This document shows positions 43,234 through 64,000 of a DNA stretch of 64,000 nt, piece by piece. The DNA comes from a virus. The stretch covers positions 1-64,000 of the IMG/VR virus record IMGVR_UViG_3300002835_000094. One strand, written 5' to 3'. The notes under the pieces were generated by a model, which had not been told where the DNA came from, did not search any database, and worked only from the letters and a program-made list of their open reading frames with translations. Position 1 is the first letter of the stretch. Each line of letters opens with the position of its first letter. The position numbers were made by a program, and so were the translations under genes.

Positions 43234-43234
43234 T

Positions 43235-44671: not shown

Positions 44672-45342
44672 TTTCAGAGATTTATGCGTATGGCTGTAGT
44701 TTTGTGTACGGTGATGGTGTCAAACAAGAGGACGCCTGGCCACAGCTTTTAGGTAATAAATTTAATGTTCCCGTCTTTAATCGCGGGGAAAGAGGTGGCT
44801 CTAACAAATTTTCTTTAATTCGCTTCTTTGAAGATTTAAAAAAATTTACACCAGACACCTTCATTATTTTTTCTTGGACAGGGTTCACCCGAACTATGTT
44901 CTATTCTAGAAAATTTAATAATTGGAATATGTACCTACCAGGACATGTACCATTAAATGAAGATAACACAATTTCTGAAGATGGCGAAAATATGAAGTAT
45001 TTTTATGCCAATATATATTCTGATTACGATTCTCTAACTACTCTTTATCAACAGCAATTGTTGTTGCAAAACTTTTTAGAAAATAATAAATTAAATTATG
45101 CTTTTATGAATGCAGTAGATGATAATTTATTATTAAGGTATAGATTTTGGGAAAATGATTCATTAACTAAAAACCTGCACAGTGGAATAAAGAAAGAAAA
45201 GTATTTTTTAGGATACAACAATTCACTTAATAAAGTTGTATGTAAAGAATTGAAGTTACTTGCTAATGATGGATACCACCCTAGTGAAACCGGTCATATT
45301 TGGATAGCTGATAATTTATATAATTGGATACTTAAAAAATGA
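44668..45342 (+). CDS. SGNH/GDSL-family hydrolase (1 of 4)
   Basis: This 224-residue protein has block I with G9-C10-S11 (YAYGCSFVYGDG), the nucleophile being Ser11. A block II-like NRGERGGSNKFS segment supplies Gly and Asn, and block V D201-G-Y-H204 (NDGYHPSETGH) supplies Asp and His. SGNH enzymes remove or transfer acyl groups, for example O-acetyl on polysaccharides. Acting on a glycan is inferred from the cassette. Coupled by a 4-base overlap to both neighbours, and followed at once by a second SGNH gene. Confidence 0.65.
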   Translation: MISEIYAYGCSFVYGDGVKQEDAWPQLLGNKFNVPVFNRGERGGSNKFSLIRFFEDLKKFTPDTFIIFSWTGFTRTMFYSRKFNNWNMYLPGHVPLNEDNTISEDGENMKYFYANIYSDYDSLTTLYQQQLLLQNFLENNKLNYAFMNAVDDNLLLRYRFWENDSLTKNLHSGIKKEKYFLGYNNSLNKVVCKELKLLANDGYHPSETGHIWIADNLYNWILKK

Positions 45343-46148: not shown

Positions 46149-46150
46149 TC

Positions 46151-47566: not shown

Positions 47567-48108
47567 ACTACAAATTAAAGAAATGGCAAGATTTTGAAAC
47601 TTCGTACTTAACTACATTTGGTAACGAAGTTCCTATCTTTGCCCCTTCTGTTTTTCATGAACATCGTGGAGAGATTTTTACCACATATCATGACGAGTTG
47701 CATCCCGTAAACTCAGTCTTACCTAAAGATTTACATTTTCACAGCAGATTCAGTAAGTCTTATAAAAATGTGCTTAGAGGCTTGCACTACGATACTAAAA
47801 CATATAAGTTGGTACAAGCATTAGTTGGTGACATATATTTGGTAGTGTTGGATGTAAGAGAAGGATCAGAGACATATGGCAAATATGAATCTTATATCTT
47901 ATCTGAAAAGCACAGGCATCAAGTTTTAATACCGCCGGGGTTCGCTAATGGTCATTATGCATTGACTGATTGCATCTTTCATTATTACCTATTCTATAAA
48001 GGCGAGTACTATGATGTGAAGGATCAGGGAGTCATAAAATTTAATGATCCTAGATTTAATTTAGAGTGGCCCACCACAACGCCCTTATTACAAGAACGAG
48101 ACAAATAA
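47563..48108 (+). CDS. rmlC-like: dTDP-4-dehydrorhamnose 3,5-epimerase-like (RmlC-type cupin)
   Basis: This 181-residue protein has the RmlC landmarks: FHEHRGEIFTTYHD, SRFSKSYKNVLRGLHYD with catalytic-type His75, GDIYLVVLDVREGSETYG and IPPGFANGHYAL. RmlC epimerises C3 and C5 of a 4-keto-6-deoxy nucleotide sugar. Length equals that of bacterial RmlC (about 180). No RmlA, RmlB or RmlD is recognisable nearby; the NAD-dependent epimerases downstream could be partners. It may instead be a single-position epimerase for another keto-sugar. It overlaps the upstream stop by 4 bases and lies 6 bases before the ThDP E1-alpha gene. Confidence 0.85.
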   Translation: MNYKLKKWQDFETSYLTTFGNEVPIFAPSVFHEHRGEIFTTYHDELHPVNSVLPKDLHFHSRFSKSYKNVLRGLHYDTKTYKLVQALVGDIYLVVLDVREGSETYGKYESYILSEKHRHQVLIPPGFANGHYALTDCIFHYYLFYKGEYYDVKDQGVIKFNDPRFNLEWPTTTPLLQERDK

Positions 48109-48114
48109 ACATCT

Positions 48115-48744
48115 ATGATTAAAAACTTGCAAAATTATCCAATAGTTAGAGATATTGGATTTACTGAAAATGACCTTATTGATTTTGAACTTAAGATCAT
48201 AGACCATTGGGAAAATGCCAAAATCAGAGGCCCGGTACATTTGAGTAATGGTAATGAGAATCCATTAATTGAAATTTTTAAAAGAATAGATAAAAATGAT
48301 TGGGTTTTTAGTACATGGAGATCCCATTATCACGCACTTTTAAAAGGTCTTGATACTAGTTGGCTTGAAGAAGAAATACTTAAAGGAAAATCAATTACAA
48401 TATGCAATCATGAAGAAAAGTTTTATTCGTCTGCTATCGTGGCATCAACATTATCTATAGCATTGGGTGTAGCTCAATCAATTAAATTAGATAATAAACA
48501 AGAAAAGGTCTGGTGTTTCATCGGTGATATGTGTTTTGAAACTGGTGCATTTTATGAGGTGCACAAGTACGCTAGAAATTTTGATTTACCTTTATACTTT
48601 GTCGTTGAAGATAATGGAATTTCAACTTACACACCGACAGTTAAAACATGGAATGTGCAACGTGACATACCCGATGATGTAATTTACTACACATACAAAT
48701 CAAAATACCCGCATTATGGCTCTGGTAAATGGATCGCATTTTAA
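48115..48744 (+). CDS. Thiamine-diphosphate enzyme, E1-alpha-type subunit (ThDP-binding half)
   Basis: This 209-residue protein matches the alpha subunit of 2-oxo-acid/acetoin dehydrogenase E1. FSTWRSHYHALLKGLD matches the conserved R-x-H-x-HALA region, SSAIVASTLSIALGVAQ the glycine-rich helix region, and G137-D138-M...E165-D166-N167 the ThDP/Mg motif with the expected 30-residue spacing. It is shorter than bacterial E1-alpha (about 320-360). A separate beta-type half lies 6 kb downstream (54305). It lacks any lipoyl/E2 partner in the window. A carboligase or decarboxylase role in making an unusual sugar is inferred. The last 29 bases overlap the next gene. Confidence 0.75.
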   Translation: MIKNLQNYPIVRDIGFTENDLIDFELKIIDHWENAKIRGPVHLSNGNENPLIEIFKRIDKNDWVFSTWRSHYHALLKGLDTSWLEEEILKGKSITICNHEEKFYSSAIVASTLSIALGVAQSIKLDNKQEKVWCFIGDMCFETGAFYEVHKYARNFDLPLYFVVEDNGISTYTPTVKTWNVQRDIPDDVIYYTYKSKYPHYGSGKWIAF

Positions 48745-50155
48745 GTTTGTATACACGCATTGGTTAAAAACACCGCGTGGCAATTTTCCTATAGCCAATG
48801 GTATACATCCCGAAGGTATTAAACAATACTATAAATTCTACAATGAAACAATTCAGGTAGGATTTGGAAGCCAAGAGAACCTAGAAAAAAAGATTCTTGA
48901 AAAATATCCTGAATATGAAAATTTTTTCATGCTTGGGCATTCTTTATTGATGACATATTTAAATGAGTTTTTTATAGACACTTGTTTTGTCAACGAAAAT
49001 GAAATAAAAGACGATGACAATGTTTATTTCTACCCCATTGAAACTAACAAGGGTAATCATGTTCTGTACAATGATTATTGTGTTAATGTTGATGGATCGG
49101 AAACCAAATGTTCCTTTACAGATAGCTTACCGAAAAAAATAGTTTCATTACTCAAAACGAACAAAGTAAGGCTATTGATTTGTGGAATTCAAGATCCTTG
49201 CCATCATGATAGACACTTAGAATTTTTTATGTCAAATTTAGAAAAAGTTGGCATACCTAAAAATAATCCAATATTCATTGCTGGCAATAAGCAACTTGAT
49301 TCTGAATACAATACAGTCACTGGTATTTTGGCACTATATGAGGGTGGAAAATTATTCAGTCGGTACCCCCGACAGACACAATTGGGATATATATCTGATT
49401 TAGTTAGAGAGCAAGAGCTAACCGGTATACCCAGAACTAAACGTTTTTTATGCTTTAATAGGCATTATGGAAAAAGCCACAGGATTTATTTGGCTTATCT
49501 ATACTTGAAGCATAAACTATACGAAAACAGTTATTTTAGTTTTTTAGTTATCAATGATATCAATAACATTGCTAACAATTTTTACAACATAAAAAACATT
49601 TTGAACGGTTTAGATCAACTTAATATTAACAAATATATTGATGACTTAAAATCTAGAGTTCCGATTCAATTGGATACCCAGCATTTGTCATATAAAGAAT
49701 TATCTGGATTTGGTACAGTAGACAATTACAATAAAGATTTTTATAGTAGCACATATGTTCATATTGTAAGTGAAACATGTATGAACAACGAAAAATTTAC
49801 TCCTTTCTTTTCAGAAAAAACAGTAAGACCTTTTATGAATTTGCAGCCTTTCGTGTATTTCGGAGACTACCATGCATTAAAAACATTGAAAGATTTGGGC
49901 TTTAAAACTTTTTCTCCTTTTATTGATGAGTCATACGATGAAGAACCTGATCCATTAAAGAGAATGAAATTAGCAGGAGATCAGGTTATACAACTAAATA
50001 ATATGCCCATCAATCAACTTCACGAATGGTATTATTCAATTATTGATATTTTGGTTCACAACCAAAAACATCTTCAAACATTTTCTCATTATGAAGTTTT
50101 CAAACAGGTGATTAAGGACGCCGGAATAATATATAAAAATGAATTTACAAAATAA
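48716..50155 (+). CDS. Putative glycosyltransferase-like protein of the EK-T-x-RP family (paralogue of 46151-47566)
   Basis: This 479-residue protein shares the C-terminal half of the gene at 46151: RFLCFNRHYGKSHRIYLAYL near residue 243, E367-K368-T369 in SEKTVRPFMNLQPF, LGFKTFSPFIDESYD and WYYSIIDILVHNQKHL. The N-terminal 230 residues differ from the partner, so the acceptor side has probably changed while a donor-binding half was kept. The only in-frame ATG near the start (48716) lies 29 bases inside the E1-alpha gene. No Shine-Dalgarno is obvious, so coupling is likely. The family assignment to glycosyltransferases is inferred from the EKT/RP motif only. Confidence 0.45.
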   Translation: MALVNGSHFKFVYTHWLKTPRGNFPIANGIHPEGIKQYYKFYNETIQVGFGSQENLEKKILEKYPEYENFFMLGHSLLMTYLNEFFIDTCFVNENEIKDDDNVYFYPIETNKGNHVLYNDYCVNVDGSETKCSFTDSLPKKIVSLLKTNKVRLLICGIQDPCHHDRHLEFFMSNLEKVGIPKNNPIFIAGNKQLDSEYNTVTGILALYEGGKLFSRYPRQTQLGYISDLVREQELTGIPRTKRFLCFNRHYGKSHRIYLAYLYLKHKLYENSYFSFLVINDINNIANNFYNIKNILNGLDQLNINKYIDDLKSRVPIQLDTQHLSYKELSGFGTVDNYNKDFYSSTYVHIVSETCMNNEKFTPFFSEKTVRPFMNLQPFVYFGDYHALKTLKDLGFKTFSPFIDESYDEEPDPLKRMKLAGDQVIQLNNMPINQLHEWYYSIIDILVHNQKHLQTFSHYEVFKQVIKDAGIIYKNEFTK

Positions 50156-51128
50156 AAATGTTGTTGTTACTGGAGCTAACGGATTAGTTGGACTACCGAC
50201 CGTTGAAAAATTATTAAATGAAAATGTTAGCAAAATTTACGCAGTTGACTTACGGTTTAATCAAGAATTAATCGCATTACAACAGTTAAATCCTGACATT
50301 ATTGAATTAGTTCAAACTGATTTGTGCTATTTGACCAACTGCGAGAACCTATTTAAAAATAAAAATATACATGTTGTTTTACACTTAGCAGGCATCAAGG
50401 GATCGCCCCAGAGAACAAAAACATCGCCGGCAGATTATATGTTTCCTATGCTAATGTTTAATACGAATATTTTTAAAGCAGCATTTGAAGCAAATGTTGA
50501 ATGGCTAGTATACATGTCAAGTGTGGGCGTATATGCTCCGGCAGATGTGATGGTTGAAGATACTGTTTGGGAAACAATGCCTAGCAAAAATGATTGGCAT
50601 CCGGGTTGGGCAAAACGCATAGGAGAGTTGGCGTTAGATGCTCTAAAGATTCAGTATAATTTTGATAGATATACTATCATTCGCCCCTCTAACATTTATG
50701 GAAAGAATGACAACTTCGCACAAGATGCCACAGTAATAAGTTCAAATATTTGGAAACTATTTAATACTGACAAAATGATTTGTTGGGGCGATGGGTCCGC
50801 GAAACGAGACTTCGTTTTCGGTGATGATGTAGCACAAGCTGCGATTGACACAGTTAAAAAAGAAGTAAAAGATACTATAAACTTTGGTTGTGGTAAAGCA
50901 GTATCAATAAAAGAAACAATTGAAACTATAGTAGAAGTCTATGAAAAATTAACCGGAACAAGAAAAGAAATTATTTGGGATACTACTAAACCAAATGGTG
51001 ATTTGCTTAGATGTTTGTCGGCTGACAAGCAAGTGCAGTATGGCATAGTGCCGAAAACATCCCTTAAGGATGGCATAGAACATACTGTAAAAAAGTATCA
51101 ACAAAAACACTTAAATGAGGAATTATGA
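50139..51128 (+). CDS. NAD-dependent epimerase/dehydratase (extended SDR) lacking the catalytic Tyr
   Basis: This 329-residue protein has the Rossmann motif G12-A-N-G15-L-V-G18 (VVVTGANGLVG), LHLAGIKGS, VYMSSVGVYAP with the Ser region, RPSNIYGKNDNF and WGDGSAKRDFVFGDDVAQAA. These are all typical of nucleotide-sugar epimerase/dehydratases. At the Y-x-x-x-K site the sequence is P155-G-W-A-K159 (DWHPGWAKRIGEL), so Lys is kept and Tyr is replaced by Pro. Members with Y-G-W-A-K-R are common, so this copy may be altered or inactive. It overlaps the upstream stop by 17 bases and the next SDR by 4 bases. Confidence 0.8.
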   Translation: MNLQNKNVVVTGANGLVGLPTVEKLLNENVSKIYAVDLRFNQELIALQQLNPDIIELVQTDLCYLTNCENLFKNKNIHVVLHLAGIKGSPQRTKTSPADYMFPMLMFNTNIFKAAFEANVEWLVYMSSVGVYAPADVMVEDTVWETMPSKNDWHPGWAKRIGELALDALKIQYNFDRYTIIRPSNIYGKNDNFAQDATVISSNIWKLFNTDKMICWGDGSAKRDFVFGDDVAQAAIDTVKKEVKDTINFGCGKAVSIKETIETIVEVYEKLTGTRKEIIWDTTKPNGDLLRCLSADKQVQYGIVPKTSLKDGIEHTVKKYQQKHLNEEL

Positions 51129-52117
51129 ATAAAAACAGTAGAATATTATTAACAGGCGTGAGTGGTTTTATAGGCTCAAATATTTTAAAACTACTTCATC
51201 AAAAAGGCTACACTAATATTGTAACCACAACATTTTCTAGAGAACCAAAATTTGATTTTGATGGCTCTAAAAATATAACTAACCTTAAAGGTGATTTGCG
51301 AGATGCAGAATTTTGCAATGAAATCACTAAAGACATAGATGTGGTTATACATTGTTCAGCGAACACATCTAACGCATTGGATACAAAAGTAAATCCATTG
51401 TTACATGTAACACCCAATGTGGAAATGAATACAAATCTTTTGGAACAAAGTTGGAGAAACAAAGTTAAAAAGTTTGTGTTCATAAGTTCTAATACTACAT
51501 ATCCCGATTTGAAGGACGGCTATTGCGCTGAAGACCTTGATATTCACAAGACAGATTTAGTTCCCATATACAAAGCTGTAGGTGGAATGAAAAGATATGG
51601 TGAGCAACTTTGCGAGTTCTTTTCCAATCAAATCCATGATCCAATGCAATGTGTCATCATTAGGCCTAGCAATGCGTTTGGTCCCAATGATAAGTTTGAT
51701 TATGAAAAGTGTCACGTTACTCCAGCTAATATAAGAAAAGTTGCAGACAATCTTAATCCTATACCAGTATGGGGCGACGGCACTGAAGTCCGTGATTTGT
51801 TGTATGTTGAAGATATGGCTGAAGGTATTATTTTTGTTGCTGAAAAAGTAGACAAATACGACATATACAATGTATGTTATGGTGAAGGGTATACCGTAAA
51901 TGAAATATTAGATACCTTGAAAAAGATAGAAAACAACAATAATCCTGTTGAATATGTAAACAACAAGGCTCCTATGATACCGAAAAGATTGTTGTCATCT
52001 AAGAAAATCAATCAATTAGGCTGGACTCCCAAGTTCACAATTGAAGAGGGGTTGAAATTAACTCTAGATTGGTACAAAGCTAACAAAAATTTATTCAATC
52101 CAAACAGTAAGCCGTAA
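51125..52117 (+). CDS. NAD-dependent epimerase/dehydratase (extended SDR), second of three
   Basis: This 330-residue enzyme has a Rossmann motif (RILLTGVSGFIGSNILKLL), FISSNTTYPD, IIRPSNAFGPND and VPVWGDGTEVRDLLYVEDMA-type segments. The Y-x-x-x-K site is V152-G-G-M-K156; a Tyr lies three residues earlier (Y149-x6-K156). In related proteins with a VGWMKRY segment the Tyr is also displaced, so the loss is less telling than in the preceding gene. It probably works on a nucleotide sugar with its two SDR neighbours. Start overlaps the upstream stop (ATGA). Confidence 0.8.
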   Translation: MNKNSRILLTGVSGFIGSNILKLLHQKGYTNIVTTTFSREPKFDFDGSKNITNLKGDLRDAEFCNEITKDIDVVIHCSANTSNALDTKVNPLLHVTPNVEMNTNLLEQSWRNKVKKFVFISSNTTYPDLKDGYCAEDLDIHKTDLVPIYKAVGGMKRYGEQLCEFFSNQIHDPMQCVIIRPSNAFGPNDKFDYEKCHVTPANIRKVADNLNPIPVWGDGTEVRDLLYVEDMAEGIIFVAEKVDKYDIYNVCYGEGYTVNEILDTLKKIENNNNPVEYVNNKAPMIPKRLLSSKKINQLGWTPKFTIEEGLKLTLDWYKANKNLFNPNSKP

Positions 52118-52125
52118 ATACTGCT

Positions 52126-53061
52126 ATGAAGGTTTTAATTACAGGCGGCGCCGGCTATTTGGGCTCTACTATGGCCGAATACTTTTTACAGCAACAGTAT
52201 GAAGTTACGGTTTTGGACAACTTAATGTACAAGCAACTTAGCTTGTTGCATCTATTCAAGCATGAAAAATTTAAGTTTGTTCAAGGTGATGTGCGTAATA
52301 CCGAATTGCTAAAAGAACTGGTTACTACACATGATATAGTGATTCCGTTAGCAGCGATTGTTGGCATGCCTGCATGCAAATCCAATCCAGAGCTTACGGT
52401 TGATGTTAATTATAAACAAATCAAAAACATCGTGGATTGGTTAAGTAACGATCAGAAATTGATAATACCCAATACAAACAGTCAATATGGATCTAGCGAT
52501 TCAATTATTACTGAAGATAGCCCATTCAAGCCGTTAAGTCTATATGCGCAGACAAAGTGCGATGCTGAACAATATGTGCTAGATAAAAGTAATGGTATTG
52601 TATTGCGTTTGGCTACCGTATTTGGTGTTAGCCCTCGTATGAGACAGGATTTATTGGTCAATGACTTTGTTTATAAATCAGTCACAGATGGTTACCTAGT
52701 ATTGTTTGAGGCAAACTTCAAAAGAAATTATATACATGTGCAAGACATAGCTCAAACATTTTTGTTCATGGTATCCAATTATAATATTTGCAACCATAAT
52801 GTATATAATGTTGGGTTGTCTGATGCTAACTTAAGCAAGTTAGAATTAGCAAATAAGATAAAAGAACATGTCCCGTCTTTGGTAATCAAGCAGGATGAGT
52901 TCAAAGAAGATTTTGATAAGAGAAATTATATTGTTAGTAATCAAAAACTAGAAAGTTTGGGTTGGAGACCAAGTTTTAGTTTAGATTATGGAATCCAACA
53001 ATTAATTAGTGCATATCAAATGACGATAAATCACAATAATAGAAACTTTACAAACTTATGA
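52126..53061 (+). CDS. NAD-dependent nucleotide-sugar epimerase/dehydratase (extended SDR), third of three, intact catalytic triad
   Basis: This 311-residue protein has KVLITGGAGYLGSTMAEY as the NAD site, DVRNTELLKELV after the second strand, NTNSQYGSS with the Ser region, and an intact Y140-A-Q-T-K144. YIHVQDIAQTFLFMV and SLGWRPSFSLDYGI are typical of the C-terminal substrate domain. Of the three adjacent SDRs it is the one with a clear catalytic Tyr and Lys. It starts 8 bases after the second SDR and overlaps the next gene by 4 bases. Confidence 0.88.
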   Translation: MKVLITGGAGYLGSTMAEYFLQQQYEVTVLDNLMYKQLSLLHLFKHEKFKFVQGDVRNTELLKELVTTHDIVIPLAAIVGMPACKSNPELTVDVNYKQIKNIVDWLSNDQKLIIPNTNSQYGSSDSIITEDSPFKPLSLYAQTKCDAEQYVLDKSNGIVLRLATVFGVSPRMRQDLLVNDFVYKSVTDGYLVLFEANFKRNYIHVQDIAQTFLFMVSNYNICNHNVYNVGLSDANLSKLELANKIKEHVPSLVIKQDEFKEDFDKRNYIVSNQKLESLGWRPSFSLDYGIQQLISAYQMTINHNNRNFTNL

Positions 53062-53483
53062 AACAGCGCCGATATCTACATTCACTTGGTGATTTAATTG
53101 ACCGTTTAAGTATTGTTCAACTTAAAGAAGTGTTTATACCCGAACATAAAGAAGCATATTCTCAAGAAATTGCAGATATTGTACACGATATACAAATGAT
53201 TTTAGATGAGAATAATGGTGTAATTACTGCTGAAACAATACGAGCAGTAGTTGTTGTGTCTCAAATGAACTTGCATATTTGGCATAATGAAAGTAATTAT
53301 CGGCGTGGAATTAAAGATGGTAATAATCTAGAGTTAACTCATGGATTAAATGGTATACGAAATACAGCTAAAAATGTAATTCAAGAAGCGATTGGTGGCA
53401 GAAAAGATTACAAAGTAGATTGTTTAGCAGCCGAATTTAAAGACTGGGAAATCAGTTGGAGTCAACGAGATCAAAATGTTTAA
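53058..53483 (+). CDS. Helical protein of unknown function in the sugar cassette
   Basis: This 141-residue protein is predicted all-helical: LGDLIDRLSIVQLKEVFIPE, then long helices with NLHIWHNESNYRRGI and LTHGLNGIRNTAKNVIQEAI. The LIDxLSI opening and an IWHxExxxR-like segment recall DUF4254-type proteins found beside glycosyltransferases in bacteria, but I cannot confirm this by eye. It overlaps the third SDR by 4 bases and the next SGNH gene by 8 bases, so it is an integral cassette member. Confidence 0.45.
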   Translation: MKQRRYLHSLGDLIDRLSIVQLKEVFIPEHKEAYSQEIADIVHDIQMILDENNGVITAETIRAVVVVSQMNLHIWHNESNYRRGIKDGNNLELTHGLNGIRNTAKNVIQEAIGGRKDYKVDCLAAEFKDWEISWSQRDQNV

Positions 53484-54318
53484 AGTAAAACCAAATACTA
53501 ATATTAGGAAAGGGATAGCATTTGCTGGCTGTTCATTTACTTGGGGTCAAGGACTATATTATTACAGTAACTTACCTACATTAGATGAACCTGCACCGGA
53601 TGCATACAATGAGTCATTGTTAACTCAAGCACAATTTAATTTCAAAGATTCTGTGCGAGGCGCGAGATTAGTTGCGAATCATTTTAATACATTTGAAATA
53701 GTTCAGAAAAATAACGGCGGATCAAATGATTCAATTATGGGCTATTTTTATGAATTATTTCAGGGTGAAAAACCAATGGCTGACCGTAACTGTTACGGAT
53801 ACAATGAGGTAAAATACCTTGTGTACCAACTAACATACTGGACTCGGGATAAAAAACAAGTTATAGAAGATGGACATAACTTTACATTTTCTTGGCAAGA
53901 CTTATTGAACGACGGGTCGGTTGAGTCTATAAACTTTTTTAAATACATTAGAGATAAAAATTACACCTTTGATGAGTTATCAGCAAGATATATCCAACAC
54001 AGTTTGATGAAAGTAAAAAAGTTTTTAATGCATTTTGAAAGCAAGGGAATAAAAACTATAATTTATTCTTGGCCTGTAGACTTTGTACAGTATATCAAGC
54101 AAGATGAATGGTTGAACAAAAGATTTATGGAAATAAACTATAACAATCAAAAATACGATTGTATGGAAACGATGATGAAAGAAAATAGGAATTTGGTTAT
54201 TAATGGAGATACCGTTTTCTTTGAAGATCCTCCCAAAGATCATCATCCTTCATTAGAATGTCATCAAGTAATGGCAAAAAACATCATAGAAAAGTTGGAT
54301 CAATATGAGCGACAATAA
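53476..54318 (+). CDS. SGNH/GDSL-family hydrolase (3 of 4)
   Basis: This 280-residue protein has block I with G18-C19-S20 (IAFAGCSFTWGQGLYYYS), a Gly/Asn block (NNGGSNDSIMGYF) and a C-terminal D255-H-H257-P (DHHPSLECHQVMAKNI). The D-x-H spacing resembles that of the 54841 gene. It overlaps the helical protein by 8 bases and the E1-beta gene by 14 bases. Substrate is unknown; O-acyl removal or transfer on the glycan made by the cassette is the likely reading. Confidence 0.65.
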   Translation: MFKVKPNTNIRKGIAFAGCSFTWGQGLYYYSNLPTLDEPAPDAYNESLLTQAQFNFKDSVRGARLVANHFNTFEIVQKNNGGSNDSIMGYFYELFQGEKPMADRNCYGYNEVKYLVYQLTYWTRDKKQVIEDGHNFTFSWQDLLNDGSVESINFFKYIRDKNYTFDELSARYIQHSLMKVKKFLMHFESKGIKTIIYSWPVDFVQYIKQDEWLNKRFMEINYNNQKYDCMETMMKENRNLVINGDTVFFEDPPKDHHPSLECHQVMAKNIIEKLDQYERQ

Positions 54319-54844
54319 TTCTGTATATAAAGATGCATTGTCGTCAGTAATGACAGAATTGGGCACCAAGGGGGATACAATTTTTATTGGACAGCAGATA
54401 TTGTACGCTGGCAATCCAATGAGCACAACACTTAATAATGTGCCAAAAGAAAAAATGATAGAGCTTCCCGTAATGGAAGAAACTCAAATGGGAATGAGTT
54501 TGGGCATTGCAATGACAGGCAAAACTGTTATTACTTTTTATCCAAGATGGGATTTTATTATTTGTGCAGCCAATCAATTGATTAATCATGTAGACAAATA
54601 CGAACTTATGACCGGCCATAAAATTAATTTAATAATTAGATTGGGTAAAGGGTCAGATAAGCCACTAGATCCGGGTCATCAACATAAGGGTAATTATATT
54701 AATGAATTCAAAAACATGTGTAAAAATATTTCTTTTTATGATTTGACTTCATATAATTTGATTGAAAAATCTTATCTAGAGGCATATCAAAACGGCGGAG
54801 TGCATGTATTAGTAGAATACCCTGAATTATATTATGCATCATGA
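54305..54844 (+). CDS. Thiamine-diphosphate enzyme, E1-beta-type subunit (pyrimidine domain only)
   Basis: This 179-residue protein matches the N-terminal pyrimidine-binding domain of E1-beta. IELPVMEETQMGMSLGIAMT contains the Glu (E58) that contacts the ThDP aminopyrimidine, FYPRWDFIICAANQLINHVD matches the region after it, and PGHQHKGNYINEF follows near residue 120. Full E1-beta proteins are about 320-340 residues and end in a transketolase C-terminal domain; this one stops after the first domain. It should pair with the E1-alpha half at 48115 to build one active site. It overlaps both neighbouring SGNH genes. Confidence 0.72.
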   Translation: MSDNNSVYKDALSSVMTELGTKGDTIFIGQQILYAGNPMSTTLNNVPKEKMIELPVMEETQMGMSLGIAMTGKTVITFYPRWDFIICAANQLINHVDKYELMTGHKINLIIRLGKGSDKPLDPGHQHKGNYINEFKNMCKNISFYDLTSYNLIEKSYLEAYQNGGVHVLVEYPELYYAS

Positions 54845-55713
54845 GTTATAAAGGTTACGACTTATTTTACATCAATGGTAGCTCATATACTATGGGGGGC
54901 GGATTAGAAGATACCACTATCGCACCATGGAATGAAAAATGTTTAGAGGGCTACAAAACCTTGTATAATGTATCTTGGAGTGATACACGCACTGAAGCAA
55001 ATTATGGAGCCATGCTATCTAAACTGATTAACATACAATGTGTCAATGAAGCCGAGTGTGGGGGAGGATTGGATAGAGTCATAAGAATGACTTATGAATT
55101 TTTGGAAAAAAACTGGGATAATCGTCATAGATTATTTTTGTTTTTAGAAATGCCCGATCCCGGAAGAAGTGAACTGTATTACAATGACTGGGGCAAATAC
55201 TTTATTTGTAATTCAGAATTAAGCACACAAAAATTTGCATACGCTACTCCTTGCTATAATCCTCGCCCAGAAGGCGTAGATGATGTCCAAGAAGATTTTA
55301 AACACTACTTTGAAAAATTTCATAACACTTTTGAGTTTTGGAAAAAAATAAGCCGGGACATGATTGGATTATACTTGTTTTGTAAATCTAACAATATTGC
55401 AATAAAACTTATGCACGGTTATATGTATAAATTTTATGATAAGTTTTTCAATAAAAACGATTTATTTTATAGTAATATATTGGCATATTCAAGAGATAAT
55501 AATAAATTTGTTTGTGATGAAATTAAGGGATATTCTGATGATCCTCATCCAGGTTATTTTGCTCATCAAGAATATGCTAAAATGTTGAAAGATTGGCTTG
55601 ATCAAAATCTTGAAAATAGTCCTACAATAGATCAGACCTCCGAAGAAAATTTCAAACAAATGATGGCTGAGTTACAGGCAAGAGATCCCTTCCATTATGA
55701 AACAAGAAAATAA
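54841..55713 (+). CDS. SGNH/GDSL-family hydrolase-like protein (4 of 4)
   Basis: This 290-residue protein has block I G13-S14-S15 (LFYINGSSYTMGGG), where Ser14 replaces the Cys of the other three copies, NEAECGGGLDRVIRMTY as a Gly block, and D234-P-H236 (DDPHPGYFAHQEYAK) at the C-terminus. The order and spacing follow the gene at 53476. It lies directly behind the E1-beta half with a 4-base overlap and overlaps the next radical SAM gene by 17 bases. Confidence 0.58.
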   Translation: MSYKGYDLFYINGSSYTMGGGLEDTTIAPWNEKCLEGYKTLYNVSWSDTRTEANYGAMLSKLINIQCVNEAECGGGLDRVIRMTYEFLEKNWDNRHRLFLFLEMPDPGRSELYYNDWGKYFICNSELSTQKFAYATPCYNPRPEGVDDVQEDFKHYFEKFHNTFEFWKKISRDMIGLYLFCKSNNIAIKLMHGYMYKFYDKFFNKNDLFYSNILAYSRDNNKFVCDEIKGYSDDPHPGYFAHQEYAKMLKDWLDQNLENSPTIDQTSEENFKQMMAELQARDPFHYETRK

Positions 55714-56779
55714 AGACATACTTAAAAAGTATGTCTGTTTAAATCCTTTTAAGTACATTGATATACAGCAGGATACTCAGTGGGTGTGTTGCCCCAGCTG
55801 GTGTCCTACAAATATCAGACAAAATAACACAAACTTTAATGATACCGAAACACTAAAACAAAGTTGGTTTTCACAGACCGTAAAAGATATTAGAGAGTCA
55901 GTAACTGATGGTACTTATAAGTTTTGTGACCATAAAGTATGCCCTCAGTTGTCACAACTTGTAAACACGGGTGTAAAGCCTAAGGACTTTATAACGATTG
56001 AAGAATTTCAACAATCATATGATTTAGAAAATTATTCAGGATTTCCAGAACAAATATTATTTGGATTTGATAGAAGTTGCAACTTAAAATGTCCCTCATG
56101 CAGAAAAGATTTTGTTCCTAACGATGACCTTGAATCTGAAAGTCATAAAACAAAAAAATATTTACTAGATGCAGTAGATAACGAATTTAGTGAATCTGCT
56201 AAGGTTATAATGATTACGGGAAGTGGTGATCCCTTTTATAGCAAGTTATACAGAGATTATCTTATAAATTTTGATGCTAGTAAGTATCCCAATCTTGAAA
56301 GAATACACATTATTACCAATGGTGTATTGTTGACTGAAAAAATGTGGGATAAGTTAAAAGCCAAGCCCTTTATTAAAACAATGGAAATAAGTATTGACGC
56401 TGGCACAAAACATACTTATGAAAATATTACCAGATTGAATGGTGATTGGGATGCACTAATTGAGAATTTAAAGTTTTTACGAACACAAACTACGCTTGAA
56501 CATCTAACATTGTCAATGGTTGTTTCTCAATACAATTATAAAGAAATGGAAATTTTTTATAATTTGATGTTGGAAATTTTTGAAAAGGCATCGTTTACTT
56601 TTAGTATCAATTATAGACAAATAGTACATTGGAATACCGGTGCGTATACGATTAAAGACATTAGTAATATTTCAATCTTTGATCCTGCACACCCACAGTT
56701 TAAAGATTTCCTAGCTGAATTATACAAGATAAATAACAAATCCGAACGGATCAATCACAATTTCCATCATTTGTTATGA
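55697..56779 (+). CDS. Radical SAM/SPASM-like protein (third radical SAM)
   Basis: This 360-residue protein has C128-N-L-K-C132-P-S-C135 (FDRSCNLKCPSCRKDF) as the 4Fe-4S/SAM motif, IMITGSGDPFYSKLY as the glycine block and MEISIDAGTKHTYENITRLN later in the barrel. The N-terminal 90 residues are Cys-rich (YVCLNPF, WVCCPSWCP, CDHKVCPQL), pointing to an auxiliary cluster. It is shorter than the tandem pair at 41662-44671 and not closely similar to it. The substrate is unknown. It starts 17 bases inside the upstream SGNH gene and is followed by a 40-codon gene. Confidence 0.8.
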   Translation: MKQENKDILKKYVCLNPFKYIDIQQDTQWVCCPSWCPTNIRQNNTNFNDTETLKQSWFSQTVKDIRESVTDGTYKFCDHKVCPQLSQLVNTGVKPKDFITIEEFQQSYDLENYSGFPEQILFGFDRSCNLKCPSCRKDFVPNDDLESESHKTKKYLLDAVDNEFSESAKVIMITGSGDPFYSKLYRDYLINFDASKYPNLERIHIITNGVLLTEKMWDKLKAKPFIKTMEISIDAGTKHTYENITRLNGDWDALIENLKFLRTQTTLEHLTLSMVVSQYNYKEMEIFYNLMLEIFEKASFTFSINYRQIVHWNTGAYTIKDISNISIFDPAHPQFKDFLAELYKINNKSERINHNFHHLL

Positions 56780-56789: not shown

Positions 56790-56912
56790 ATGAGTTTATT
56801 CAACAAGCTAAAAGAATTAGTATTCAATTACTATCATAAAGTTCACCGAGAAATTACTTACAGAAAAAAAATCAAAGAACTTAAAAAGCGCGATCCGTTT
56901 ATTTACAAATGA
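56790..56912 (+). CDS. 40-residue basic protein immediately upstream of the carbamoyltransferase
   Basis: An ATG at 56790 opens a 40-codon frame that ends in TGA overlapping the next ATG (ATGA at 56909). The peptide starts MSLFNKLKELVFNYYHKVH and ends KIKELKKRDPFIYK, giving an amphipathic, highly basic helix. A gene of this size and composition precedes carbamoyltransferases in some related phages as I recall, which favours a real gene. It may dock the enzyme to a membrane or partner. No catalytic role is expected. Confidence 0.55.
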   Translation: MSLFNKLKELVFNYYHKVHREITYRKKIKELKKRDPFIYK

Positions 56913-58393
56913 ACTATATAGGTATAAGCAACGGTTTTCATGATGCCGGATTAACTGTCATCTCTGGAACGGGTGATATACTTTTTGCCAGCCATAGTGA
57001 AAGATACAGCAAACACAAGCACGACAAAAATTTGTGTGCAAGTATTGTTCAAGATGCGTTGAATCATGCAACTGGTGATTTTGAACTTCATTATTACGAA
57101 AGACCGTTTTATAAGATACTAAGACAACTCCGTGCCGGAGAAAAACCTTCTTTATTGAATTTGTTTGATTCTGAATTAGTAGGACCCAACATGTATAACA
57201 TGTTGGGCAAAAAAAGTATTAAAAAACATAATCATCATTTAAGTCATGCCGCAGCTAGTTTTCAAACTAGTCCTTTTACTGATGCTACAGTGGTTATTAT
57301 AGATGCTATTGGAGAATTTGATACCATAACAATATGGGATGCATATTACGATAATAACGGTAATGCAAAATACATAAAACTATACAGCAAACAATATCCA
57401 AACAGTTTAGGTTTATTTTATAGTGCCATGACTCATAAAGTTGGTTTAAAGCCAATGGATGAAGAATATATTCTTATGGGAATGGCTGCATACGGAGAAC
57501 CCAAGTATACTGATTTGATGCATTCGGAATTTATAGAGAATATGCATTCCATTGACTTTAAACAAAATCTGCACATTGGCGCTGATGATGAGTTTTTAAA
57601 AGACGCAGATCCAATGGATATTGCAAGCTCTAGTCAAGTGTTCTTAGAACAATTATTGCGGGAAGTAATGTCAAAAGCCAGACTAAAAGGCGCGAGTCGC
57701 AATTTAGTGTATGGCGGCGGTGTTGCACTAAACTGTCTTGCTAACAGACTACTAGGAGAATATTTTGATCAAATATGGATTATGCCTAATCCTGGTGATT
57801 GCGGTTCTAGTTTGGGAGCCGCTGCGCTTGGTTATCGCAAGCACCTTAATTGGACTAGTGCTTTTCTCGGCCACAATATCCCTGGTCCTTATCCTACTAA
57901 CCGTATACTTGATTGTCTTTTTACCGATCGTATTGTTGGTGTGGCTAGTGGTAAAGCAGAGTTTGGCCCAAGAGCCTTAGGCAACCGTAGTTTGTTAGCA
58001 GATCCTAGAGGGAACGAAATTAAAGACAAAGTAAATGAAATCAAACGCAGACAGAAATTCAGACCATTTGCCCCTATAATTCTAGAGGAGCATGTGCATA
58101 AGTATTTTGATATGCCTAAAAATTGGAACAACAGCAGATACATGCAAGTTATTGCAAAGTGCAAATTTCCAAACAAGTTCCCTGCTATTGTTCATTATGA
58201 TGGGACTAGTCGTGTACAAACTGTTCCGAAAGATGGATCAGGAATACGAGACTTACTAGAAAAGTGGTATGTAATGACCGAATGCCCTATATTACTGAAC
58301 ACTTCATTGAATATACGCGGCGAACCAATGGTCAATGATAGATTTGATGCCGACCGTTTTGAAAAACTATATAATGTAAAAGTTATATCATAA
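56909..58393 (+). CDS. Carbamoyltransferase (NodU/TobZ family)
   Basis: This 494-residue enzyme transfers a carbamoyl group from carbamoyl phosphate, via carbamoyl-AMP, to a hydroxyl group, typically on a sugar. Visible features are GISNGFHDAGLTVI at the start, the metal-binding HNHHLSHAAASF near residue 115, a GGGVALNCLANRL segment, and the YrdC-like C-terminal domain with FGPRALGNRSLLADPRG and KFRPFAPIILEEH. It is a little shorter than TobZ/NodU (about 550-570). It closes the enzyme part of the cassette and lies 8 bases before the giant repeat gene. Carbamoylation of the phage-directed glycan is the likely role. Confidence 0.88.
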   Translation: MNYIGISNGFHDAGLTVISGTGDILFASHSERYSKHKHDKNLCASIVQDALNHATGDFELHYYERPFYKILRQLRAGEKPSLLNLFDSELVGPNMYNMLGKKSIKKHNHHLSHAAASFQTSPFTDATVVIIDAIGEFDTITIWDAYYDNNGNAKYIKLYSKQYPNSLGLFYSAMTHKVGLKPMDEEYILMGMAAYGEPKYTDLMHSEFIENMHSIDFKQNLHIGADDEFLKDADPMDIASSSQVFLEQLLREVMSKARLKGASRNLVYGGGVALNCLANRLLGEYFDQIWIMPNPGDCGSSLGAAALGYRKHLNWTSAFLGHNIPGPYPTNRILDCLFTDRIVGVASGKAEFGPRALGNRSLLADPRGNEIKDKVNEIKRRQKFRPFAPIILEEHVHKYFDMPKNWNNSRYMQVIAKCKFPNKFPAIVHYDGTSRVQTVPKDGSGIRDLLEKWYVMTECPILLNTSLNIRGEPMVNDRFDADRFEKLYNVKVIS

Positions 58394-58401: not shown

Positions 58402-61400
58402 ATGCTGAGAGATGTATTTTATTACGGTAAAAAACCAAACGTCCATCCTAGAGAAAAGTTTGCTAAAGATTTAGCAGATGCTAGAAACCAATCTACTACA
58501 GAACATTTTTGGATAATCAACGAGTTTAGTGATTATCGCAATTTTGATTGGGATTTTGATTTTGATTTTCTACCTGACGAAGATGTGTGGGCAGAAGATC
58601 ATATCAATGTTTGGCCCAGCCAGCATCAGAAAGATAGCGGGACTTGGTTAGTTAATACAGACAATCAAAATCCCTGTATCATTTATAGAAATGATGTTGA
58701 TTGTGTTAAAAGAACAAAATTAAAATCTGATAACTGGGTAATTCCATATCCTATAGATGAAAAGTTGTTTGATTTTAGCTGGCATCCTGATACAACTGAT
58801 CCTCCTTTTATCTATCAGTTTAGTTCTCAGTGGCGCAAAACAGGTGGACCTAGATATATTGTACCCGGCGCAACCGTTATTAAATTTGTGGACACGCAAT
58901 TAGCAACAGCAGTCCCTGATTGGGATAATTGGGTGATTCATAAACCAATAGATGAGAAACTGTTTGACTTTACTTGGATGCCAGACGAGCATGAACCTCC
59001 TTATATCTATGTATGGGGTAACAAATGGGTTTCCGGGGCGATATCTCCTACAGTAGAGTACCGTGCACCCGGTGCGACAGAAAAAAAATATATGTCAGAC
59101 ACGGTTAGATTGATTCCCAAATATGACAAGTGGGTAATCAATGATCCAATAAATCTAGATTTATTTGACTTTAGTTGGATACCTGATCCAACGAGTCCTG
59201 CATACATTTATGTATGGGGTAATAAGTGGGTTCCCGCTGAACTTCATTCAACCATTGAATATCATGTAGATGGTGCAATAGATAAAAAATACATGAATGA
59301 TCCTGCCCCGGTCTTGCCCCAAACTGAGTTATGGAAAATATACAGTGAAGTTAAAAATTTTGACTTTACTTGGAGGCCTGATCCAAGAGAACCAGCATAT
59401 ATCTATACTTGGGGGAATAAGTTTGTATCTGCTGAAATATCACCAACTCTAGAATACCACACTCCTGGCGCTACTGAACGAAAGTACATGGGAGATGTTG
59501 AGGTTGTGCCTGAATATAATAAATGGATCGTATATCAAAAGAACACCTTTGATTTGACATGGCGACCTGACCCAAGAGAACCTGCTTATGTTTATGTCTG
59601 GGGTAATAAATATATACCTGGAGAAATAAAACCAACCCTAGAATATCACACCCCCGGGGCTACTGAACGAAAGTACATGGGAGATGTTGAGGTTCTCCCG
59701 GAAACAGACAAATGGAAAATACATCATTTAGTAACTAATTTTGATCTAGCCTGGAGACCAGATCCTCGTGAACCCGCTTATGTCTATGTTTGGGGTAACA
59801 AATATATACCCGGGGAAATACAGCCTACAATAGAATATTATGTAGAAGGTGCTACAGAAAGAAAGTACATGGGAGATGTTGATGTTGTCCCGGAACTTGA
59901 AAAATGGATAATGCACATTCCAGTTGATAAAACACAGTTTGACATGGCATGGCGCCCCGATCCAAGAGAACCAGCATATATCTATACTTGGGGGAATAAG
60001 TATGTTTCTGCTGAATTAAAACCTACGCTTGAATATGTTGTGCCCGGTGCGACAGATAGAAAATACATGGGAGAGGTTCCAGTATTACCAAATTGGGACA
60101 ACTATAAAATACATGCATCCATACAAAATTTTGATTTTACTTGGATACCAGATCCAAGAGAACCTGCTTACATTTACACATGGGGTAATAAGCACGTGCC
60201 GGCTGAGGTTCACCCAACACTTGAATATTATGTAGATGGAGCAACTGAACGCAAGTATATGGGCAATGTTGAAGTATTACCCGAGCTAGATAAGTGGGAA
60301 ATACATCAACAAATTGACAAAGAAAAATTTGACTTTAGTTGGAGACCCAATCCTACTAGTCCCCCGTATATTTACGTATGGGGTAACAAATATATACCGG
60401 GAGAATTACGACCTACTGTTGAATATCACACCCCCGGTGCAACTGAATACAAATATATGGGAAATGTTGAAGTATTGCCCGAACATGACCGTTGGGTTGA
60501 ACATCAGCAAATAGATAAATCTAAATTTGATTTTGCTTGGAGACCAGATCCAAGAGAGCCTGCGTATATTTACACATGGGGAAATAAATGGATCAAGGCT
60601 GAATTGAAACCTACTTTAGAATATAAAGCGCCAAATGCCACTGAAAGAAAGTATATGGGTGATATTGAAGTGTTACCTGAACTGTCTAAGTGGAAAGAAA
60701 TTCAACCAATTGATAAAGCAAAATTTGATTTAAGTTGGAGACCAGATCCAAGAGAACCTGCATATATCTATGTCTGGGGCAACAAGTGGATAAGACCTGA
60801 ACTTAAATCCACATTAGAATATCACATGGAAGGGGCTACTGAGTACAAATATATTCAAGAACCTGTTGATATATTGCCCGAATATGATAGATGGAAGGAA
60901 GTACAAAAGGTAACAAACTTTGACTTTACTTGGCGGCCAGACCCAAGAGAGCCAGCATACATCTATGTGTGGGGTAACAAGTGGATACCCGGTGAACTAA
61001 AATCTACAATTGAATATCATTGTGATGGCGCCACAGAAATTAAGTACATGGGCAATACTGACGTTCTACCCGAATATGATAGATATAATATTCTTATACC
61101 TATAGACAAAGATAGTTTTGATTTCACATGGAGACCTGACCCAAGAGAACCAGCATATATCTATGTATGGGGTAATCAAAGTAACAATGCTGAAACAGAA
61201 CCAACTATTGAATATCACTGTGAAGGGGCATCTGAACGCAAATACATGAATGACAGATTTGCGAAAACATTGCCCGACATGGATAATTGGAGTGTGTTGA
61301 TTCCAGTAGAAGATTTTGATTTTAGTTGGAGACCCGAACCCGGCAGTCCTCCTTATATCTATGTGTTTGGCAATCAATGGCACGATGCTATGACTGAGCC

Positions 61401-64000
61401 TACGGTACTGTACACAGTTCATGGGGCCACTGACAAAAAGTATATTACTAACATAATTGCTAAAGTTAGTAAAACACAACAGTATTGGAAAACATTAATA
61501 GACATAGAAAGTTTTGATTATAGCTGGAGACCTAATCCACATAGTCCTCCTTATATCTATGTGTTTGGTAATCAATGGAATGATGCACTTCAAGAACCAA
61601 CTGTTGAGTATCATTGTCCCGGAGCTACAGAATACACATACATTGATAACATCAAAGCATTAGTAAAATCTACTGCGACAGAAAATCATTGGAAAAAATT
61701 ACTACCAATTGAAAGTTTTGATTTTAGTTGGAGACCTGATCCCAAGTCACCTCCCTACATATATGTGTTTGGTAATAAATGGAATGATGCATCTACTGAA
61801 CCCACTGTTGAATATCATGTAGAGGGAGCAACAGATAAAAAATATATGTTAGAACCGGTAGCTGTTCCTGCTGCACAACTAAATTTGTGGAGCGTTAACA
61901 ATACTGATGATTTAGAAACATTTGATTTTACATGGAGACCTAATCCTCATAGTCCGCCTCAAATATATCAGTGGGCTAACAATGGCCCTAGATACACAGT
62001 GCCTGGTGCTACGGAAGTTGTATTGATGGAACGTTCTAATGAAAGTAAAAAGACAACAGTAAACAAATATTATATTACGACTACATTAGAAGATTTGATT
62101 AATCAACATCCTGAAGAAGTATTTTGGGCACTAAACCCTGATTTAAACTATGATAAGTTTGATTTTAGTTGGAGGCCAACTGAACAAAACTTTAGACACA
62201 TAAATGTGTTCGGTAATGAATATAGTAAGAACACACAAACCTACTACATCAATGCTCCGTTGTATTTGTTGGGCTATAAAGAATATAACTATGTTGAAGA
62301 ACATCAAGTTCAAACAGATACTAATTTGAGTATGTTTTTTATTGATAAAGGTAACCTAGAAAGTAATATTCGTTTCAATAAACTTAAAGAGTTATATCCC
62401 AAGCTTCAAAAAACAAGATTCTTCAACAACTGGGTTGAAACAATCGCAAGATGCATTCGCAAAACAGAAACAAAATTATTTTGGGTATTGAATAGCGAAT
62501 TAGATTATTCTGATTTTACTTTTGATTTTTATCCAAGTCCATGGCAAATCAAAATGATTCATGTGTTTGGTACTCAATGGAATCATTGGGGAAATACTTA
62601 TGTCATTAATTCAGAAACCTTTTTAGAAGATACCAAGTATGTTAAAGTTATTGAGCACCTCAATACTATAAACTTAGTAAAAAGTAAAAGAGCAAAGGCT
62701 ACTGATTGTCTATATGATGTATATTTGATAGATCACGGAAACTACGAATCGGTTGATATCATATACGACATTACAGAAAAAATTGGGAATAGAAAATTAC
62801 ATACTATTGATTTTGTAGACACCTATCATAAAACATTTGAAAAGATTCTTAATCTGTTAGAAGATAAAAAGGATCAGTTTATTTGGGTATGTAATTCAAT
62901 ATGTCATTACGATAAATTTGATTTCAGTTATATTTGCGATCCCTTTGCGCAGGAACAATTGCATGTGTTTCCTAGTGACAGACAAAAATATGGTGATACC
63001 TTTTTAGTAAATGTTGAATTATTGCGCAAGTTCATAAATGACATTTCTTCATTAGAAAATTATCCAAGTATCAATTTCAATGAGCATCAATCAGTCACTA
63101 GAATCAATCCGCCTGAATTTATTACTAGTGACAGTCATGTTGGATCTATAGATAAAAACTTTAAGTTCCCTTATGCAGTTTTTAAAACTAACGACCATAG
63201 AAATATTAATATCAAGGATGAGAAACCTATTAGTTTATGGTCTGAAAGTTCTAAAACTATTCTAGTAACTACTACAGGTGGAACAAGAATAATAGTTCCT
63301 AAAGATGCTATAAAATATGTAAAAGAAGAATTATATGATTATCCCTATATTAAAAAATCTTACAAGCCATTACAAAGCAATCCGTTAGACATTGTATTTT
63401 TAAGCAATGGTGAAAGTAACGCAGAAGAAAACTACGAACATCTATTAAAAGTAACCAAAGGTAAAAAGAACAAAGTTGTCCGCGTTGATGGGGTAAATGG
63501 AAGAGTAAATGCGTACCATGCCGCAGCAAATGTAAGCACTACGCCGTGGTTCTTTACGGTATTTGCTAAGTTAAAAGTAGACGACAATTTTGATTGGAAC
63601 TGGCAACCTGACAGGCTTCAAAAGTCAAAGCATTATATTTTTCACGCTACTAATCCTGTGAACGGGTTAGTATATGGTCACCAAGCTATGATTGCCTATA
63701 ACAAGATAATGACATTGAATAACACCGGTAAAGGATTAGACTTTACACTTGATGACAACCATGAAGTAGTAGAAATCAATTCGGGAACTGCAATGTTCAA
63801 TACAGACCCATATAGCACTTGGAGAACTGCATTCAGAGAAGTAATTAAACTGTGTAATGATGAGCAAGACTATATGAGTCAAACACGTTTGCATACTTGG
63901 TTAGCAAAGGCTGAGGGTGACTTTAGTGAGTATGCATTAATGGGTGCAAATGATGCTTATGAGTATTATGAAAACAATAAAGACGATTTTGCCAAATTGA
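58402..64000 (+). CDS. Giant tandem-repeat protein built from glycosyltransferase-like units (3' end outside window)
   Basis: From the ATG at 58402 the frame stays open for 1,866 codons to the window edge. Residues 1-90 (DVFYYGKKPNVHPREKFAKD, FWIINEFSDYRNFDWDF) are a decayed first unit. Residues about 113-1,210 hold about 16-17 tandem 63-68-residue repeats around WRPDPREPAYIYVWGNK and GATERKYMGDVEV. Degenerate units follow to about 1,530 (LNYDKFDFSW, LDYSDFTFDF, CHYDKFDFSY). Residues about 1,660-1,860 match the glycosyltransferase at 40703 (VVRVDGVNGRVNAYHAAAN, VNGLVYGHQAMIAYN, PYSTWRTAFREVIKL), but FAK stands where DGD is in the neighbour. It may be a scaffold or glycan-binding protein that has lost activity in most units. 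The stop codon is not seen. Confidence 0.65.
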   Translation, partial: MLRDVFYYGKKPNVHPREKFAKDLADARNQSTTEHFWIINEFSDYRNFDWDFDFDFLPDEDVWAEDHINVWPSQHQKDSGTWLVNTDNQNPCIIYRNDVDCVKRTKLKSDNWVIPYPIDEKLFDFSWHPDTTDPPFIYQFSSQWRKTGGPRYIVPGATVIKFVDTQLATAVPDWDNWVIHKPIDEKLFDFTWMPDEHEPPYIYVWGNKWVSGAISPTVEYRAPGATEKKYMSDTVRLIPKYDKWVINDPINLDLFDFSWIPDPTSPAYIYVWGNKWVPAELHSTIEYHVDGAIDKKYMNDPAPVLPQTELWKIYSEVKNFDFTWRPDPREPAYIYTWGNKFVSAEISPTLEYHTPGATERKYMGDVEVVPEYNKWIVYQKNTFDLTWRPDPREPAYVYVWGNKYIPGEIKPTLEYHTPGATERKYMGDVEVLPETDKWKIHHLVTNFDLAWRPDPREPAYVYVWGNKYIPGEIQPTIEYYVEGATERKYMGDVDVVPELEKWIMHIPVDKTQFDMAWRPDPREPAYIYTWGNKYVSAELKPTLEYVVPGATDRKYMGEVPVLPNWDNYKIHASIQNFDFTWIPDPREPAYIYTWGNKHVPAEVHPTLEYYVDGATERKYMGNVEVLPELDKWEIHQQIDKEKFDFSWRPNPTSPPYIYVWGNKYIPGELRPTVEYHTPGATEYKYMGNVEVLPEHDRWVEHQQIDKSKFDFAWRPDPREPAYIYTWGNKWIKAELKPTLEYKAPNATERKYMGDIEVLPELSKWKEIQPIDKAKFDLSWRPDPREPAYIYVWGNKWIRPELKSTLEYHMEGATEYKYIQEPVDILPEYDRWKEVQKVTNFDFTWRPDPREPAYIYVWGNKWIPGELKSTIEYHCDGATEIKYMGNTDVLPEYDRYNILIPIDKDSFDFTWRPDPREPAYIYVWGNQSNNAETEPTIEYHCEGASERKYMNDRFAKTLPDMDNWSVLIPVEDFDFSWRPEPGSPPYIYVFGNQWHDAMTEPTVLYTVHGATDKKYITNIIAKVSKTQQYWKTLIDIESFDYSWRPNPHSPPYIYVFGNQWNDALQEPTVEYHCPGATEYTYIDNIKALVKSTATENHWKKLLPIESFDFSWRPDPKSPPYIYVFGNKWNDASTEPTVEYHVEGATDKKYMLEPVAVPAAQLNLWSVNNTDDLETFDFTWRPNPHSPPQIYQWANNGPRYTVPGATEVVLMERSNESKKTTVNKYYITTTLEDLINQHPEEVFWALNPDLNYDKFDFSWRPTEQNFRHINVFGNEYSKNTQTYYINAPLYLLGYKEYNYVEEHQVQTDTNLSMFFIDKGNLESNIRFNKLKELYPKLQKTRFFNNWVETIARCIRKTETKLFWVLNSELDYSDFTFDFYPSPWQIKMIHVFGTQWNHWGNTYVINSETFLEDTKYVKVIEHLNTINLVKSKRAKATDCLYDVYLIDHGNYESVDIIYDITEKIGNRKLHTIDFVDTYHKTFEKILNLLEDKKDQFIWVCNSICHYDKFDFSYICDPFAQEQLHVFPSDRQKYGDTFLVNVELLRKFINDISSLENYPSINFNEHQSVTRINPPEFITSDSHVGSIDKNFKFPYAVFKTNDHRNINIKDEKPISLWSESSKTILVTTTGGTRIIVPKDAIKYVKEELYDYPYIKKSYKPLQSNPLDIVFLSNGESNAEENYEHLLKVTKGKKNKVVRVDGVNGRVNAYHAAANVSTTPWFFTVFAKLKVDDNFDWNWQPDRLQKSKHYIFHATNPVNGLVYGHQAMIAYNKIMTLNNTGKGLDFTLDDNHEVVEINSGTAMFNTDPYSTWRTAFREVIKLCNDEQDYMSQTRLHTWLAKAEGDFSEYALMGANDAYEYYENNKDDFAKL
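58740..62040 (+). repeat. About 16 tandem 189-204-bp coding repeats
   Basis: In-frame positions of the repeat Trp (or Phe) anchor are 59014, 59215, 59410, 59599, 59791, 59989, 60181, 60379, 60577, 60775, 60970, 61168, 61366, 61564, 61768 and 61972. Steps are 189-204 bases, most often 198. Each unit reads: Phe-Asp-Phe/Leu-x-Trp, RPDPREPAYIY, (V/T)WGN(K/Q), a variable 5 residues, PT-(I/L/V)-EYH, GATERKYM. The first unit (near 58800) and the last are degenerate. Some units share identical DNA of 36-42 bases, for example around 59380 and 59960. Confidence 0.85.

Follow-up and report, generated by a model that had tools for sequence, protein, structure and literature searches.

A phage protein with a tandem array of putatively glycosyltransferase-derived units beside a variable glycan cassette

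Some known proteins string together two or three GT-A domains, and lone inactive copies of such domains serve as accessory domains. The K4 chondroitin polymerase of E. coli (K4CP) and Pasteurella heparosan synthase 2, for example, handle a growing polysaccharide with two GT-A domains per chain, and in the WbdA/WbdD system a coiled coil has been proposed to act as a ruler rod. In human LH3/PLOD3 the accessory (AC) domain is inactive and has been proposed to recognise substrate or partners (PMC6082870), and in the O9a system of WbdA/WbdD a protein controls how long the glycan chain becomes (PMC3482155, in the part of the paper available). Among phages, pelagimyophages carry glycosyltransferases in a hypervariable region together with tail fibres, where they are proposed to alter the host surface (PMC7029224, available part). 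Here we describe a phage protein that resembles such multi-domain GT-A proteins with inactive copies; its array architecture was not found described. Its copy number rises with the size of the sugar-gene cluster next to it, which suggests an undescribed scaffold on which phage-made sugar chains are built. Its gene lies at the end of the window, the 64,000 nucleotides analysed, which open a virus record of 88,986 bp (bases 1-64000).

The closest described systems share parts of this protein. When a model of the C-terminal 784 residues was compared with the PDB using Foldseek, tandem GT-A proteins ranked first, namely LH3 (E 9.5e-6), with its GT-A-like Rossmann domains in a similar row, followed by the fold matches K4CP (E 3e-4) and heparosan synthase 2 (E 1.8e-3); most of the PDB matches are GT-A proteins. 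Their TM-scores over a long multi-domain model are low, so they speak for the class of fold without singling out a relative. Unlike LH3, the phage protein has no dioxygenase domain and carries a long array, and at about 9% identity the likeness is one of fold, not of membership. K4CP and heparosan synthase 2 are active enzymes, whereas all modules of the phage protein are without a DxD motif and most of its length is array. The usual partner gene of the array belongs to the same family (PF16861/PF02543) as those of NodU/TobZ operons, and to our knowledge no such rod is known from operons for Nod factor or antibiotic carbamoylation. The WbdA/WbdD system, with its coiled coil and kinase/methyltransferase, has no homology to the array protein. 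The pelagimyophage clusters belong to a different phage group, and no repeat array is reported in the available part of PMC7029224; similarly, core glycosyltransferases but no such array are described in the available part of the paper on the jumbo 'moraphage' (PMC12619734). Our literature search for arrays of this type found none. We know of no long array built from a GT-A slice whose copy number follows the size of a biosynthetic cluster.

Architecture of the array protein and origin of its units

The features of the locus are given in Table 1. The open reading frame of the array gene runs past the end of the window, and following the record beyond base 64000, a check proposed with the original prediction, completed it at 1885 residues; the last 19 residues of terminal domain T and the stop codon lie in this extension. 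From its start the protein consists of an N-module, 17 tandem units, three irregular modules (C1-C3), a linker and T. Its best reading is a soluble modular rod, with no membrane segment (the highest 19-residue hydropathy is 1.2) and nothing signal-like by eye at the N-terminus.

Table 1. Features of the locus (window numbering, which is that of the record)
Feature	Position	Strand	Residues	Basis
Stand-alone GT-A-like gene, intact relative of T	40703..41662	+	319 aa	BLASTP, profile
Variable glycan/sugar cassette	41656..56779	+		ORFs between stand-alone gene and array side
NodU/TobZ-like carbamoyltransferase gene	56909..58393	+		PF16861 E 3e-47, PF02543 E 1e-37
Array gene	58402..64059 of record, stop codon 64057-64059	+	1885 aa	ORF
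N-module, abbreviated relative of C1-C3	58402..58725	+	1-108	alignments, hhalign
17 tandem units, ~66 aa each	58729..62058	+	110-1219	profile search, alignment
C1, irregular module linking units to C2/C3	62083..62316	+	1228-1305	hhalign
C2, GT-A-like module without DxD	62326..62640	+	1309-1413	predicted structure, hhalign
C3, GT-A-like module without DxD	62707..63036	+	1436-1545	predicted structure, hhalign
Beta-rich linker	63037..63384	+	1546-1661	predicted structure, profile comparison
Terminal domain T, GT-A-like	63385..64000 in window	+	1662-1885	predicted fold, homology

A profile built from the units recovered all 17 at independent E-values of 4e-15 to 3e-37, together with a diverged unit at residues 1241-1305 (E 1.3e-6), and detected no unit when this protein was shuffled 200 times; the tandem repeats are detectable at the DNA level too. 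The earlier description of about 16 units of 63-68 residues with an RPDPREPAYIY core was right, the profile count being one higher. Irregular units lie at about residues 36-85, 1241-1305, 1360-1410 and 1494-1540. The N-module begins MLRDVFYYG...FWIINEFSDYRNFDWDFDF..., and C1 contains FWALNPDLNYDKFDFSWRP.

Profile comparisons with hhalign link the units to the modules that follow them. The unit aligned with C1 (99.1%, E 8e-19), with C2 (97.9%, E 5e-13) and with T (82.6%, E 1e-5), in the last case with FDFxWxPD placed on FDWNWQPD; C1 matched C2 (98.4%, E 7e-15), C2 matched C3 (98.1% over 100 columns), and the N-module matched C1, C2 and C3 (94%, 92% and 91%). The linker had no profile relationship to the other modules of the protein. 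In an AlphaFold2 model built with the alignment of relatives (mean pLDDT 85, pTM 0.65), C2, C3 and T are predicted to have their strands and helices in GT-A order, sharing the pattern E-H-E-H-E-E, with C2 reading E-H-E-H-E-E-E. The N-module with about five units (residues 1-450) was also confidently modelled (AlphaFold2 pLDDT 90.9, pTM 0.73), yet against the PDB this model had no match at E <= 0.001; numerous GT-A and nucleotidyltransferase folds are among its weak matches. The case for a GT-A origin of the units is therefore made by way of C1 and C2. The best-supported origin of the units is still a duplicated slice around the DxD strand, as had been proposed from the sequence of the window: the alignment of units with C1, C2 and T at the DxD-strand segment bears this out, while the suggested fold prediction did so for C2, C3 and T and left the fold of the units on its own unmatched.

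The model of the N-module with about five units gave its only strong fold matches in the viral library to two uncharacterised proteins of uncultured Caudovirales phages in BFVD (A0A6J5L5L5, E 2e-44; A0A6J5LK21, E 1e-25), both without an attached description and, by fold, probably the same repeat protein. The profile search that had been suggested as a further check returned numerous viral relatives and no curated family.

Terminal domain T has an intact relative at the other end of the cassette. T and the stand-alone gene at 40703-41662 matched by BLASTP (E 5e-14) and by profile (98.8%, E 4e-17, over 187 columns and most of the length of T). In the best 80 of 420 viral stretches, the stand-alone homologues are at least 77% identical, more conserved than T, and DGDN at the DxD site is invariant in 80 of 80, the window's copy reading IDGDN. 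In T, 49 columns are invariant across 51 sequences, and a TWRTxFRE helix is conserved, of which the stand-alone DGDN gene has a related form. The DxD position of T reads FAKLK in the window, its first lysine being invariant in the 51 sequences, and the other modules read NSEL (C2), NSIC (C3) and NEFS (N-module) there. T had been called a full glycosyltransferase-like domain; it is full length, but the DxD motif is lost, and its sequence is not that of an intact enzyme. In active families such as GT14, basic side chains are known to have replaced DxD, and prokaryotic GT6 enzymes have likewise lost DxD and are metal-independent (PMC7185993), while inactive GT-A copies exist as well, as in the AC domain of LH3 (PMC6082870). 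Since both kinds exist, T may be either dead or metal-independent. The modules and the stand-alone gene gave nothing above cut-off against Pfam, PHROGs, NCBIfam and PDB sequences, and since neither T nor the stand-alone protein fits a curated family, we infer the term 'glycosyltransferase' from fold, motif and neighbours. Weak Pfam matches of T to RE_EcoO109I and iSirtuin, and of the whole protein to YdaS_toxin, TUDOR and DUF3912 (E 1e-3 to 0.14), were put down to chance, being below curated cut-offs or to unrelated folds.

Gene neighbourhood, distribution and copy number

The array gene lies outside the structural block, and the cassette that it closes comes after the tail genes. Directly upstream, ending 8 bp before the array gene, is a carbamoyltransferase gene with both family domains and a match to phrog_1601 (E 7.5e-93). 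Of 51 loci, 34 have a homologue of this gene directly upstream of the array, 29 of these 34 at a spacing of 7-11 bp, and 39 have one within three genes. In one relative the array ORF is in frame with an apparent carbamoyltransferase end (L015:7143-7280), possibly a fusion or a frameshift. The upstream border of the cassette is the stand-alone DGDN gene. Judged from their sequences, the genes in between read as sugar epimerase/dehydratase-like, SGNH-like, radical-SAM-like and others, and those tested against Pfam had no significant match. Among 80 records collected through the DGDN gene, some of them also in our first set, the array was present in 54, in each case 6.0-27.6 kb downstream with the strand unchanged; since the other 26 stop no more than 18.7 kb from the DGDN gene, none is a proven absence. 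The DGDN gene and the array thus bracket a cassette of variable content and length.

Several other elements were seen around the locus. A permuted two-piece tmRNA gene (L004:6045-6436, record 64044-64435; Rfam RF01850 E 9e-43; tag ANDEVFALAA) overlaps the last bases of the array gene. Among the relatives' loci, about half have a tmRNA by ARAGORN and 13 others have one by Rfam, all of them downstream of the array on the + strand, with tags that vary among relatives; two-piece tmRNAs are known in aquatic phages such as Melnitz (PMC9004378). Further along (L004:9401-11426, record 67400-69425) are genes whose sequences suggest a Burkholderiales-like porin and a phosphate-binding protein resembling PstS, and these genes, with the betaproteobacterial-type tmRNA nearby, are a hint of a betaproteobacterial host. 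Within the structural block, window positions 15962-35458 form a single ORF of 6498 aa that is repeat-rich by eye. One relative has a tRNA with the amber-reading anticodon CTA, called tRNA-Pyl by ARAGORN (L068:11226-11302). The T4 late-promoter consensus TATAAATA, considered as a way of timing expression, does not occur near the array gene; it occurs twice in the 64 kb against 11.4 expected, at window positions 6485 and 12038, both between ORFs.

The array gene is not peculiar to this phage but is conserved in a large group of uncultivated aquatic phages, numbering hundreds. The unit as query matched 343 viral stretches, of which 78 loci were kept, and the N-module, a query that does not select for arrays, matched 148, of which 80 were kept. 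The array is present in each of the 67 complete proteins among the kept loci, which have 4-35 units and span about 840-3070 aa, and the search through the N-module found no array-less member among them; the WRTxFRE signature of T is present in 66 of the 67. No true relative was found in 50,697 isolate phage records or in GTDB genomes, where of five matches four were the N-terminus of a pyruvate-phosphate-dikinase-like protein (PKYVYTWGNK) and the fifth was a 43-aa fragment at a contig end. Against the PADLOC defence models the protein matched only KwaA, at E 0.027 over 42 residues.

Between close relatives (91-93% identity), copy number shifts by whole in-frame units, for example by one unit between L025 and L028 (63 aa), L039 and L080 (68 aa), and L009 and L016 (67 aa). 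The units are under purifying selection in eight pairs, with dN/dS of 0.10-0.21; for C1-C3 the values were 0.03-0.08 in seven pairs and 0.32 in one, selection on the units thus being the weaker in seven of the eight. Within a protein the units are barely more alike than between proteins (0.50 vs 0.45). Two unit positions stand out for conserved hydroxyl residues, position 17 being S/T in 92% and position 52 T in 77%.

Array length, cassette length and proposed function

That the array and the cassette act together is indicated most strongly by the coupling of their lengths. Array length rises with cassette length measured in bases, with a Spearman correlation of 0.71 in a first set (n=32) and 0.66 (p 5e-6) in a second, overlapping set of 38 distinct records; the correlation is post hoc. 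Independent contrasts on the tree of the DGDN gene gave r 0.49 (p 0.002; signs 27 vs 9), falling to r 0.32 once the three most influential contrasts were left out. General genome size as the cause was ruled out by two controls: array length does not follow record length (-0.04; cassette partial correlation 0.68), nor the length of the neighbouring structural region (gp6-like baseplate gene to DGDN gene), which ranges from 22.7 to 32.6 kb (0.14, p 0.44), whereas in the 32 records of this control the cassette does correlate with the array (0.62, p 2e-4). A recombination-prone locus could nevertheless lengthen both array and cassette.

We tentatively favour a reading in which the protein would be a rod of modules that acts as a scaffold for the enzymes or acceptors of the phage's glycan cassette. 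The units would have retained the strand-loop-strand segment that surrounds and follows the DxD strand but not the nucleotide- or donor-binding half, so their role would be to bind acceptors of the glycan or enzymes of the cassette, not to catalyse. With a larger cassette, which makes a longer glycan or supplies more enzymes, more docking units would then be called for. The chain, at its start or as it grows, may be held by the end domains T, C2 and C3, and T might yet be catalytic; the other cassette genes would make and transfer the sugars, the carbamoyltransferase would decorate the glycan, and the finished product may go to the virion or to the host envelope. A stricter version, in which each unit docks a single sugar residue or a single enzyme of the cassette, units are gained and lost in evolution along with those enzymes, and the protein thereby records glycan complexity in the genome, seems doubtful to us. 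Three functions had been suggested at the outset (a glycan binder, a scaffold for cassette enzymes and a virion-surface lectin), of which linkage and length scaling favour the scaffold, with the virion lectin kept as a rival.

That rival, a virion-surface lectin or fibre, is unlikely in our view. A multivalent glycan-binding rod would hold the particle to host polysaccharide, and its copy number would tune reach and avidity, in keeping with the whole-unit length variation between close relatives, the confident prediction of the repeats (pLDDT mostly above 90, pTM 0.73), the place of the cassette after the tail genes, and the faster evolution of the units than of the ends in most pairs. Yet the array gene stands outside the structural block and is usually tightly paired with the carbamoyltransferase gene, its product has no structural-family match in our Pfam and PHROGs searches, the ends are GT-A-like, and array length is independent of the structural region.

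Similarly unlikely is an active polymerase with a built-in ruler, where T, perhaps with C2 and C3, would be a metal-independent glycosyltransferase and the rod would set chain length. T is strongly conserved, has a lysine at the DxD position and shares the TWRTxFRE helix with the DGDN gene; array length scales with cassette length; and there are precedents in glycosyltransferases without DxD (PMC7185993) and in the chain-length control of O9a (PMC3482155, available part). However, a ruler predicts scaling with chain length, whereas the scaling observed is with cassette bases, nucleotide-sugar binding by T is a prediction, and C2 and C3 are without DxD as well.

We consider it improbable that the array is itself the acceptor, its units being glycosylated and carbamoylated by the cassette into a mucin-like or S-layer-like product. 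The conserved Thr/Ser positions and the operon-like pairing with a modifying-enzyme gene would suit such a substrate, but descent from a sugar-handling fold makes this role unnecessary, neither a signal-like start nor a membrane anchor was seen, and no known sequon was identified in the units. Finally, neutral tandem expansion in a recombination-prone island, with the length correlation a by-product of regional plasticity, would explain the whole-unit indels between close relatives and the slight excess of within-protein similarity, but is very improbable given in-frame units under purifying selection in 8 of 8 pairs, an array in every complete protein, and a structural region that varies by 10 kb without correlation.

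The array marks a widespread group of uncultivated phages and gives a testable handle on the products of their large sugar cassettes. The natural range of 4-35 units is a ready-made series of length variants with which to ask whether the protein acts as ruler, scaffold or lectin.
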